From the NCBI RefSeq assembly GCF_018861005.1, contig NZ_JAHKQL010000016.1, positions 248,001 through 312,000 of the forward strand: a stretch of 64,000 nt of DNA, read 5' to 3'. The translations under genes were made by a program, and so were the position numbers. Every line of letters starts with the position of its first letter. The stretch's first letter is position 1. The notes under the pieces are model-generated. The model did no database searches. It had not been told where the DNA came from and saw only the letters and a program-made list of their open reading frames with translations. The stretch comes from Polaribacter vadi. GTDB lineage: Bacteria; Bacteroidota; Bacteroidia; Flavobacteriales; Flavobacteriaceae. Shown one piece after another: positions 38,078-41,679 of the stretch.

Positions 38078-38094
38078 AAACATTAATAAATAAA

Positions 38095-38120
38095 AAAACG
38101 AGCCTATTAAGGCTCGTTTT
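38095..38120. terminator. Bidirectional terminator, enoyl-CoA hydratase / secreted paralogue 1
   Basis: AAAACGAGCC and GGCTCGTTTT around TATTAA; T-rich on both strands. Same design as the hairpins after paralogues 2 and 3. Confidence 0.85.
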
Positions 38121-38156
38121 CTTTTTAGATTTAAATCTTAATTGGGTTAAACTTTT

Positions 38157-38738
38157 TTAAATTTCAAAATCGTTGCTAAAGCTTCTACCATTATTGCGTA
38201 AAACAACAGTATAACTTCCTTTTACATCTTGGTCTAAACTGTAAACTCTATTTAGAATGTCGTCACCTTTTACAGTTTCTGAAAAAATAATCTCATCATT
38301 AAAATAGATATAAATTTCTGATGGTTTTTTATCAAAAGCAATTTTAGAAATCATTAATTTGTTTTCTTTGTTTCTAATAACTGGCTTAAAAATTACTTTC
38401 TTAGAATCTTCATTAAATGTTACAGAATCACCTTTTACAGTTAATGTTTTAATTACAATTTCAAAATCCTTTTCTAATTCTAAAGTATAATTACCATCAT
38501 TTAATTTAGAGAAATTAAAAAACTTTACAAGATTACCTGCTTTGTTTATATTTTCGAAATGAAGAACAACTCCGTTTTCATCTTTTATTGTTAATTGTTG
38601 TCCTTTCTTTGCTCCTTTAAATACTACTTTTGTTTTGTTAGCATTTAATACATTTTTCAATTCTGAATTGTTGGCGTAGTTTACTAATGTTCCGAACATA
38701 AAAACTACTACTAATACTGTTTTTTTAATTGTTTTCAT
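38157..38738 (-). CDS. Secreted 193-residue protein, paralogue 1 of a tandem trio
   Basis: Signal peptide of about 22 residues ending NYANN, then a mature part of about 170 residues rich in beta-type patterns: KVVFKGAKKGQQLTIKDENG, LNDGNYTLELEKDFEIVIKTL and VIFKPVIRN. The C-terminal NNGRSFSNDFEI motif is shared by all three paralogues. It has no Cys in the mature part, no lipobox and no T9SS sorting domain, so it is probably periplasmic. I recognise no function; DUF3244-like is possible. It has its own promoter and terminator. Confidence 0.85.
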   Translation of the reverse strand: MKTIKKTVLVVVFMFGTLVNYANNSELKNVLNANKTKVVFKGAKKGQQLTIKDENGVVLHFENINKAGNLVKFFNFSKLNDGNYTLELEKDFEIVIKTLTVKGDSVTFNEDSKKVIFKPVIRNKENKLMISKIAFDKKPSEIYIYFNDEIIFSETVKGDDILNRVYSLDQDVKGSYTVVLRNNGRSFSNDFEI

Positions 38739-38765
38739 AATATAAATTTTTTAAGATTTATACTG

Positions 38766-38808
38766 CAAAGTTATAGCAGAACTTTAGTTTATAAAACAAC
38801 ATAATTGG
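38766..38808 (-). promoter_or_regulatory. Promoter of secreted paralogue 1
   Basis: On the minus strand: CCAATTATGTTGTTTT (38793-38808), 19 nt, then the -7 box TAACTTTG (38766-38773) followed by CAG. The spacing and both blocks are repeated before paralogues 2 and 3. Confidence 0.75.
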
Positions 38809-38859
38809 CACATTTATATTCTATATTATCAAGTTAAAATACACTAAATTTTTATAGAG

Positions 38860-38895
38860 TTAATATAGTATATATTTATACTAATTTTATATACT
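38860..38895. promoter_or_regulatory. Conserved upstream element, copy 1
   Basis: Starts TTAATATAG and ends AATTTTATATACT on the plus strand, 86 nt upstream of the -7 box. It matches copy 2 at 31 of 36 positions by eye. It could be an activator site, perhaps for the AraC protein. Confidence 0.55.
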
Positions 38896-38941
38896 TTTCA
38901 AAAAGTGTGATTTATTCTAAATTTAGTTTTTAACGCAAAAA

Positions 38942-38967
38942 AAAACGAACCAATTAAGGTTCGTTTT
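38942..38967 (-). terminator. Terminator after secreted paralogue 2
   Basis: AAAACGAACC and GGTTCGTTTT around AATTAA, with a long T-run on the minus strand. Confidence 0.85.
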
Positions 38968-39010
38968 CTAGATTTATTTCTAAATCTGATAATTAACTAA
39001 AAACTATCTT

Positions 39011-39592
39011 TTATATTTTAAATTCGTTACTGTAACTTCTACCATTGTTTTGTATAACAACTTTGTAATTACCTTTAAGTTCTTCGTCTAATTTATAAAC
39101 TCTGTTTAAAATAGTATCTCCTTCTATAGTATCAGAATAAATGATTTCATTGTTATAATATAAAGCAACATCTAAAGGTTCATTATCGAAAGCAATTTTT
39201 GTAATCATTAATAAATTATCTTCATTTCTAACCACTGGTTTTAAAATTACTTTTTCAGAAGCATCATTTAAAAATACTTTTCCTGCTTCAATTTTTATTG
39301 ATTTTACAACAATTTGAAAATCTTTTTCTAATTCTAAAGTATAACTACCATCTAAAAGCTGAGAGAAATCGAATGTTTTAATAAGTTTACCTTCTTTGTC
39401 TACATTTTCAGTATAAAGTATAACTCCATCAATATCTTTTATAGTTAACTGTTGTCCTTTCTTAACCTCGTTAAAAACAACTTTTACATTTTTAGTGTTT
39501 AATACATTTTTACTATCTGTATTGTTAGCATAATTTAATAAAGTTGCTAACATAAAAACCACTACTAATACTTGTCTTTTAATCGTTATCAT
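39011..39592 (-). CDS. Secreted 193-residue protein, paralogue 2
   Basis: Same length and layout as its neighbours: a 22-residue signal peptide ending NYANN, then KVVFNEVKKGQQLTIKDIDG, LLDGSYTLELEKDFQIVVKS and a C-terminal NNGRSYSNEFKI. It is closest to paralogue 3 in the middle section (LMITKIAFDNEPL against LIMITKIAFDNQPL). The mature part is predicted beta-rich; function unknown. It is transcribed from its own copy of the shared promoter and ends at its own hairpin, so the three are separate units rather than one operon. Confidence 0.85.
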   Translation of the reverse strand: MITIKRQVLVVVFMLATLLNYANNTDSKNVLNTKNVKVVFNEVKKGQQLTIKDIDGVILYTENVDKEGKLIKTFDFSQLLDGSYTLELEKDFQIVVKSIKIEAGKVFLNDASEKVILKPVVRNEDNLLMITKIAFDNEPLDVALYYNNEIIYSDTIEGDTILNRVYKLDEELKGNYKVVIQNNGRSYSNEFKI

Positions 39593-39619
39593 AATATAAT
39601 CTCTTTAAGATTTATGCTG

Positions 39620-39662
39620 CAAAGGTATGTTAGAAGTTATGTTCTGAAAACAACACAATTGG
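39620..39662 (-). promoter_or_regulatory. Promoter of secreted paralogue 2
   Basis: On the minus strand: CCAATTGTGTTGTTTT (39647-39662), 19 nt, then TACCTTTG (39620-39627) followed by CAG. Confidence 0.75.
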
Positions 39663-39713
39663 CAACTTTATGTGTTATTTTAACTGTTATGTATTAAGGT
39701 AATATTTAGCGTG

Positions 39714-39749
39714 TTAATTTAGTATATATTTAGAGCAATTTTACATACT
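39714..39749. promoter_or_regulatory. Conserved upstream element, copy 2
   Basis: TTAATTTAG at one end and AATTTTACATACT at the other, again 86 nt upstream of the -7 box of its gene. Confidence 0.55.
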
Positions 39750-39793
39750 TCCTAAAAATCAATTTTCACCAATATTTAAAATTAGAGCAAAAA

Positions 39794-39819
39794 AAAACGA
39801 GTCTGTTAAGACTCGTTTT
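39794..39819 (-). terminator. Terminator after secreted paralogue 3
   Basis: AAAACGAGTC and GACTCGTTTT around TGTTAA, with a long T-run on the minus strand. Confidence 0.85.
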
Positions 39820-39867
39820 ATAGATTTAAACATAAAAATCTATTAATTAACTATAAACAATACTTTA

Positions 39868-40449
39868 TTATATTTTAAACTCATTACTATAATTTCTACC
39901 ATTGTTTTTTACCACAACTTTATAGTCACCTTTTTCATTAATATCTAATTTATATACTCTGTTTAAAATTTCTTCTCCTTCTAAAGTTTCAGATAAAATA
40001 ATTTCATTATTGTAATAAAGATCAACTTCTAATGGTTGGTTATCAAAAGCAATTTTGGTAATCATTATTAAGTTTTCTTTTTTTCTTATTACAGGTTTTA
40101 ATATTACCTTTTTAGTGTCTTCAGCAAAAATTACTTTATTATCTTCTATTTTTAAAGACTTAACTATAATTTGAAAATCTTTTTCTAATTCTAAAGTATA
40201 GTTACCATCTTTAAGTAAAGAAAAATCAAAAGTTTTTATAAATTTACCAGCTTGAGCAACATTCTCAGAATAAAGTACAGTACCATTAATATTTTTAATA
40301 GTTAGTTTTTGTCCTTTTTTTACTTCATTAAAAACTACTTTTACTTTGCTAGCATCTAATGTGTTTTCTGATGTTGTGTTGTTTGCATAGTTTGTAAATG
40401 TACCTAACATTAAACTTGCTACTAATACTGTTTTTTTAATTATATTCAT
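39868..40449 (-). CDS. Secreted 193-residue protein, paralogue 3
   Basis: Third member, next to the regulator: signal peptide ending NYANN, then KVVFNEVKKGQKLTIKNING, LLKDGNYTLELEKDFQIIVK and a C-terminal NNGRNYSNEFKI. It differs from the other two in having a leader of about 115 nt with two strong hairpins instead of a short one. All three keep exactly 193 codons, so selection against length change is likely. Function unknown; a secreted stress or nutrient-response protein is one possibility. Confidence 0.85.
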   Translation of the reverse strand: MNIIKKTVLVASLMLGTFTNYANNTTSENTLDASKVKVVFNEVKKGQKLTIKNINGTVLYSENVAQAGKFIKTFDFSLLKDGNYTLELEKDFQIIVKSLKIEDNKVIFAEDTKKVILKPVIRKKENLIMITKIAFDNQPLEVDLYYNNEIILSETLEGEEILNRVYKLDINEKGDYKVVVKNNGRNYSNEFKI

Positions 40450-40564: not shown

Positions 40565-40607
40565 CAAAGTTATACATGAAAAGAAGGTTTAAAAACAACA
40601 GAATTGG
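40565..40607 (-). promoter_or_regulatory. Promoter of secreted paralogue 3
   Basis: On the minus strand: CCAATTCTGTTGTTTT (40592-40607), 19 nt, then TAACTTTG (40565-40572) followed by CAG. Confidence 0.75.
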
Positions 40608-40658
40608 TTAATTTATGTGCTAAATTAACACTTTGAGGGGGCTTGTGTTTTAGCAGGG

Positions 40659-40694
40659 TTAATTTAGAATATAAAGATGATAATTTTATATAGA
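40659..40694. promoter_or_regulatory. Conserved upstream element, copy 3, between paralogue 3 and araC-like gene
   Basis: TTAATTTAG and AATTTTATATAG with a variable middle, 86 nt from the -7 box of paralogue 3 and about 20 nt upstream of the -7 box of the AraC-type gene; it could control both. Confidence 0.55.
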
Positions 40695-40713
40695 TAGTAT
40701 TATTTCTATGTCG

Positions 40714-40721
40714 TATTTTTG
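40714..40721 (+). promoter_or_regulatory. -7 box of the AraC-type regulator
   Basis: TATTTTTG ends 4 nt before the ATG at 40726 and lies inside the longer frame that starts at 40708, so the mRNA is probably leaderless. Confidence 0.5.
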
Positions 40722-40725
40722 CACC

Positions 40726-41598
40726 ATGATACAGAAAAAACCAACTCTAGAAAAAATCACCCCCAATTTTGGAAGTTCTTTTTTATTAAAAAAGCACGTA
40801 GAGTTTTTAAAAACAAACAGACCTTTTTGGCATTTTCATCCAGAAATAGAATTGGTGTACGTTAATAAAGGTAAGGGAAAAAGGCATATTGGTAATCATA
40901 TCAGTTATTTTAACAATAGTCAATTGGTATTAATAGGTTCTAATTTACCTCATATTGGTTATTTAGATCGTTTAACAACCAATGGTTCAGAAACATTAAT
41001 TCAGTTTTTACCAGATTTTTTAGGAAAACAATTTTTTAAAATTCCAGAAATGGCAGCTATAGATGCTCTTTTTGAGCGAGCTAAAAAAGGAATTCGTTTT
41101 AATATAGAAATTAAGCAAAGAATTGGAGCTAAAATAGAAAGATTGGTGGAATTAGAAGGCCCACATAGAATAACATCTTTTATAGAAATATTATATGATT
41201 TAGCTACAACAGACGATTATACGTTGTTAAATGCAAACGGATTTGCTTTTGAAAGTGCCCATCAAGATAGTAATAAGATAGAGGTTATATATAAACATAT
41301 TAACGAGAATTTTAAAGATCATATTAGTTTAGATGAAGTTTCTGAGTTAGTGAGTATGACTGTGCCCGCTTTTTGTAGATATTTTAAAAAATCTACAGGT
41401 AAAACTTTTACTAAATTAGTAAATGAATATAGAGTTGTACATGCAACAAAATTATTAGCAGAAAGCAATATGAATATTGCAGAAATTAGTTTTGAGTGCG
41501 GTTTTAATAATTTTTCTCATTTTAATAAATTATTTAAAGAGTTTACAGGTAAAAGTGCATCTGTATATAGGAGTGAGTTAAAAGATTTAATACAATAG
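40726..41598 (+). CDS. AraC-family regulator with N-terminal cupin
   Basis: 290 residues from the ATG at 40726; the ATG at 40708 lies before a -7 box. The N-terminal cupin ligand domain (about 20-100: FWHFHPEIELVYV, GKRHIG) and the C-terminal AraC double helix-turn-helix (about 185-285: ISLDEVSELVSMTVPAFCR, NIAEISFECGFNNFSHFNKL) are clear. The cupin His residues could bind a metal or a small ligand; the inducer is unknown. It is divergent from the trio of secreted-protein genes and is the obvious candidate to control them (inference). A terminator follows. Confidence 0.93.
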   Translation: MIQKKPTLEKITPNFGSSFLLKKHVEFLKTNRPFWHFHPEIELVYVNKGKGKRHIGNHISYFNNSQLVLIGSNLPHIGYLDRLTTNGSETLIQFLPDFLGKQFFKIPEMAAIDALFERAKKGIRFNIEIKQRIGAKIERLVELEGPHRITSFIEILYDLATTDDYTLLNANGFAFESAHQDSNKIEVIYKHINENFKDHISLDEVSELVSMTVPAFCRYFKKSTGKTFTKLVNEYRVVHATKLLAESNMNIAEISFECGFNNFSHFNKLFKEFTGKSASVYRSELKDLIQ

Positions 41599-41637: not shown

Positions 41638-41679
41638 AAAAACTCCTTAACAAATTATTGTATTTGTTAAGGAGTTTTT
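41638..41679. terminator. Bidirectional terminator after the AraC-type gene
   Basis: AAAACTCCTTAACAAAT pairs with ATTTGTTAAGGAGTTTT, followed by T on both strands; the HD gene converges. Confidence 0.9.

Follow-up and report, generated by a model that had tools for sequence, protein, structure and literature searches.

Three tandem genes for putatively exported proteins and a divergent regulator gene

The window analysed here, a stretch of 64,000 nucleotides from Polaribacter vadi, contains three consecutive genes (copies 1 to 3) and, divergent from them, a gene for an AraC-type regulator (Table 1). The presence of three same-strand paralogues of 193 residues with related C-termini, as described in the original prediction, agrees with the open reading frames and with a gap-free alignment, in which the copies are 60–69% identical to one another (relative to copy 3, 68% for copy 2 and 60% for copy 1). 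No full-length members of the family beyond copies 1 to 3 were found in the 3.93-Mb genome. The N-terminus of the proteins, with a basic start, a hydrophobic stretch and YAN/N, suggests that they are exported. The genes had also been regarded as separate transcription units, and indeed each has its own promoter block (see below) and its own terminator, alike in design for the three copies; eight terminator-like sites were counted in a region of 5 kb, as against 0.8 ± 0.9 in shuffled sequences. In codon adaptation the copies rank 4th, 5th and 12th among the 52 genes of the window, which says little about their expression because the ribosomal genes do not stand out either.

Table 1. Genes, terminators and promoter elements of the locus, in window positions
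Feature	Position	Strand	Remarks
Copy 1, exported tandem-DUF3244-like protein, 193 aa (export predicted)	38157..38738	-	PF11589 22.6 bits, cut-off 25 not reached
Copy 2, exported tandem-DUF3244-like protein, 193 aa (export predicted)	39011..39592	-	PF11589 29.1 bits, over cut-off 25
Copy 3, exported tandem-DUF3244-like protein, 193 aa (export predicted)	39868..40449	-	PF11589 27.5 bits, over cut-off 25; structure predicted
Terminator of copy 1	38092..38123	-	Hairpin-plus-T; bidirectional, common to the converging echA-like gene
Terminator of copy 2	38940..38969	-	Hairpin-plus-T
Terminator of copy 3	39794..39819	-	Hairpin-plus-T
AraC-type regulator, 290 aa	40726..41598	+	N-terminal cupin-like domain (HxHx3Ex6G), C-terminal HTH_18
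Operator D of copy 3	40602..40630	-	TGTTAATTTAGCACATAAATTAACCAATT
Operator U of copy 3, inverted	40657..40685	+	55 bp upstream of D; 28 bp before the regulator TAnnTTTG
-7 element of the regulator	40714..40721	+	TATTTTTG
-7 element of copy 3	40565..40572	-	TAACTTTG; TTG at 40596-40598
Operator D of copy 2	39657..39685	-	
Operator U of copy 2, inverted	39712..39740	+	
-7 element of copy 2	39620..39627	-	TACCTTTG; TTG at 39651-39653
Operator D of copy 1	38803..38831	-	
Operator U of copy 1, inverted	38858..38886	+	
-7 element of copy 1	38766..38773	-	TAACTTTG; TTG at 38797-38799

The C-terminal double helix-turn-helix of the regulator matches PF12833 with 73.9 bits (cut-off 33.6). In the N-terminal half, the HxHx3Ex6G motif is invariant among 28 regulator homologues; the profiles PF02311 and PF07883 scored under their cut-offs, and the structural model is of low confidence in this cupin-like region. 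In the window genome, a search with the regulator gave no second full-length relative. A start codon at 40708 was considered and set aside in favour of 40726: the homologues begin at the same Met, and the -7 element sits at 40714-40721. This element ends 4 bases 5′ of the ATG (40714-40726), and the regulator mRNA may therefore be leaderless or nearly so. Downstream, the regulator gene and a converging HD-domain gene are parted by a bidirectional terminator with an 18-bp stem (41638-41679).

A putative paired operator, private and with fixed spacing

A box of 29 bp, termed D (consensus rGTTAAwwTAGcAyAyAAAtntaCCAATT), is found 5′ of every copy and ends 29 bp ahead of TAnnTTTG. A second box, U, in inverted orientation, sits exactly 55 bp upstream of D (56 bp in some cases). 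When scored with a profile made from D alone, U on the reverse strand at -55 gave a mean of 2.5 bits, the best mean of 50 shuffles being about -30 to -29; a reading of the pair as a direct repeat was dropped, as the inverted reading scores far better. The box plus the -33 pattern, with up to three mismatches, has three matches in the 3.9-Mb genome, one per copy, and the reversed control had none in the same genome. Across 97 genomes of the same genus, all operator matches with up to two mismatches lie at the unit formed by the regulator and the exported protein (hereafter the effector), with one exception, in genome G067. The 29-bp and -55 spacings are kept in other genera, and the arrangement D-29-TAnnTTTG is present in most loci of other families.

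At the copy that adjoins the regulator gene, U also lies 27–29 bp before the regulator TAnnTTTG, in 46 of 48 loci; at inner copies it hardly ever does so. The mirrored arrangement of U and the -7 element thus indicates one symmetric divergent promoter, used by the first copy as well as by the regulator gene. At inner copies U is kept with no gene behind it, a sign that it may matter for the effector promoter too. The operator box is kept by dispersed copies at two loci (L257 and L259); two diverged orphan copies (L252 and L254) are without an operator. In G067, the locus L086 (4075-6860) has two successive regulator genes, and a second operator-like site (G067:C45:245574) has no recognised effector behind it.

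The effector is a tandem DUF3244-like protein

Copies 2 and 3 belong to DUF3244 (PF11589) by the Pfam cut-off of 25, copy 1 falling just short, and 44 of 60 relatives match this family at E <= 0.01. An AlphaFold2 model of copy 3, made from 60 aligned sequences, has a mean pLDDT of 80 and predicts two consecutive Ig-like sandwiches, with strands in residues ~35-108 and ~114-192. With VIA-align, the top solved match is a DUF3244 structure, 3SD2 (Z 9.9 over 82 residues, rmsd 3.1), a second one, 4G5A, is also matched (Z 8.4), and the remaining matches are mostly generic Ig/Fn3 folds (Foldseek rows with a TM of ~0.3 and an rmsd > 12 were left out). A search of solved structures by sequence, with the effector as query, returned nothing significant. 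The two halves of the effector are homologous (profile–profile probability 94.6), and the protein therefore looks like an internal duplication.

The original prediction could assign no function to the proteins. The profile searches and structure prediction that had been proposed as a check name a family, DUF3244, in the form of tandem Ig-like sandwiches, so that the proteins are not orphans; DUF3244 itself has no function in the databases searched. Literature searches for the solved DUF3244 members, for AraC in Polaribacter and for Flavobacterium gave nothing usable, and DUF3244 appears in an iron-response paper as table entries only.

Regulator and effector are inherited together

Single-sequence searches of the genome contigs found no close relatives, which were found with the family alignment as query. 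Of 50 loci in the same genus, 48 have an AraC-type gene next to the effector gene or array and in divergent orientation, and the other two are contig ends. Thus, the clustering with the regulator that the original prediction had proposed to look for in relatives is conserved. The regulator is also present at 61 of the 64 loci in the genome collection, which include Polaribacter, Winogradskyella, Psychroserpens, Lacinutrix, Algibacter, Aureibaculum, Tamlana and others. Among the 97 genomes of the genus, the effector was found in 51 and the regulator in 53, the surplus being at contig ends; for the good genomes of the genus, the figures are 39/69 for the effector and 39/69 for the regulator. The genes that flank the unit are conserved, and in 13 of 18 genomes that lack it only 71-779 bp, without any part of the unit, separate the echA-like gene from the HD-domain gene. 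Such clean empty sites imply that the unit is gained or lost as a whole. One locus, L261 (G110), has four tandem copies and one apart, all with operator D, and no regulator in the 16.5 kb around them.

In a phylum-wide sample, homologues of the regulator were detected in 44 of 395 genomes, and of 20 distant ones that were inspected, in other genera and families, 19 are accompanied by a divergent homologue of the effector. The latter is a single-domain protein of ~120-134 aa in one genus, again in tandem copies. In another genome, G669, which has three more distant regulator paralogues, one of them (L251) is without a DUF3244-like neighbour.

The copies are old and under purifying selection

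The arrays hold one to five copies in the same genus, and more in other genera. A tree places separate duplications in the window lineage, in G051, in Aureibaculum, Winogradskyella and Algibacter and in others. For each window copy there is a separate orthologue in G047, the nearest relative (77-88% identity), so that the trio predates the split between the window lineage and G047, and a recent dosage amplification in the window genome is ruled out. The dN/dS ratios (NG86) are 0.23-0.30 among the copies, 0.15-0.26 between effector orthologues and 0.04 for the regulator; these ratios are rough because synonymous distances among the copies are near saturation, and they point to purifying selection on both copies and regulator, looser on the effector. 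The effector diverges to ~30% identity, and the regulator is very conserved. Hence, of the proposal that the trio reflects dosage or specialised variants under selection, the element of selection is borne out by the dN/dS values among the copies, and a recent dosage event is not.

A proposed role for the unit, and alternatives

The regulator and the effector are linked and co-inherited, with operators of exact geometry that are private to the unit and with two DUF3244-like domains in the effector, and we think it probable that they make up an inherited regulator–effector unit in which a private one-component switch turns on one to several genes for an exported protein with a structural or binding role. 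The cupin-type AraC regulator would sense a small molecule and bind the 29-bp operator, which each copy has twice, in opposite orientations and with a spacing of 55 bp. The same operator geometry precedes its own gene, and autoregulation is probable. We assume activation rather than repression; as operators are present at the regulator gene and at each copy, activation would raise the regulator and, independently, every copy. The sole conserved output would be the one exported protein, with its two Ig-type sandwiches resembling DUF3244 or sorting domains. Because the unit has no enzyme or transporter, this protein most likely has a stoichiometric role, be it structural, shielding or binding, in the periplasm, at the surface or in the matrix; such a role would also fit the recurrent tandem amplification and the fast evolution of the effector beside a very conserved regulator.

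The likeness to sorting domains invites another reading, namely that the effector is a miniature substrate of type IX secretion, with domain 2 as sorting domain and domain 1 as cargo, or that both domains are free-standing sorting domains in competition with genuine cargo for the type IX machinery. The type IX sorting domain (PF18962/TIGR04183) is likewise a short sandwich with a GxY motif; 35 of 60 relatives match the profile Por_Secre_tail weakly, three distant effectors exceed its cut-off (L234, L245 and L250, at the C-terminus in L234 and L250), and the C-terminal domain of the effector aligns with that of RgpB (Z 7.8). However, many unrelated Ig folds align as well, the window copies reach at most 17.9 bits against PF18962 (cut-off 27) and 14.7 bits against TIGR04183 (cut-off 23), the match covers residues 34-100 of 193, in domain 1 and not at the C-terminus, and there is no large cargo; we therefore regard this reading as unlikely. 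Quite improbable, in our view, is a broader form, a class-wide, undescribed signalling unit of the Bacteroidota whose one-component sensor controls only free-standing sorting-domain-like sandwiches, so as to tune type IX export traffic or to form a surface layer by way of type IX export.

Sugars are common ligands of cupin domains in the AraC family, and the unit could be the output of a sugar response, in which the regulator senses a sugar, for example galactose or a hexuronate, while the exported proteins bind surface glycans. At three loci of another family (L246, L247 and L249) the pair lies between GH43-GH67 and galK-galT genes, with galactokinase and galT downstream of the regulator and on the same strand. 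Elsewhere, however, the neighbours are housekeeping genes, no sugar genes adjoin the window locus, and the low-confidence model of the regulator has ToxT/Rns as its best whole-chain folds, so that a sugar response does not seem likely to us. The fast divergence of the effector under a very conserved regulator, and the patchy, all-or-nothing presence of the unit, would also suit a competition or protection module, with immunity-like or shielding proteins in an arms race. Yet no anti-phage defence profile of PADLOC is matched at E <= 0.01, no linked toxin was seen, the effector is absent from the phage and plasmid records searched, and dN/dS is well under 1, which makes such a module very improbable.

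The switch with an exported structural or binding protein as output, which we favour, differs from the known systems that it resembles. 3SD2 (BT_3571) and 4G5A (BT_1867), the best solved folds for a protein of which two copies match the DUF3244 profile, are single-domain chains of 86 and 99 residues, whereas the window proteins have two domains in 193 aa and a private AraC regulator. With AraC, ToxT and Rns (AraC/XylS) the regulator shares HTH_18 and a putative cupin-like domain, paired operators by the promoter and probable autoregulation from a divergent promoter; unlike theirs, its control appears to be confined to the copies of one exported protein, and has an exact 29 bp/55 bp geometry on a Bacteroidota TAnnTTTG promoter. 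RbmA, a biofilm scaffold of Vibrio cholerae with two Fn3 domains, is likewise small, exported and built of two Ig/Fn3-type domains, and illustrates by analogy what a role in the matrix might be, but it has no sequence relation to the window proteins and its Z of 7.5 lies in the generic background.

The components thus belong to known families, and their combination and geometry, of which we found no description in the sources searched, are apparently undescribed. The suggestion that the trio and the adjacent regulator form an undescribed system gains support from the linkage, the co-inheritance and the private operators. A tight private unit over much of a bacterial class would mark a real, unnamed physiological response, in which a base-exact promoter geometry is kept while the effector diverges and multiplies. 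The unit places the DUF3244 proteins in a genetic context, and with it comes a well-defined operator of the AraC type on a non-standard Bacteroidota promoter.

At several loci, although not at that of the window, a conserved ORF of ~40 aa follows the promoter and precedes the secreted gene that adjoins the regulator (L084, L060, L059, L081, L054, L087, L098 and L072); its product, which has one hydrophobic helix, is possibly an accessory membrane peptide.
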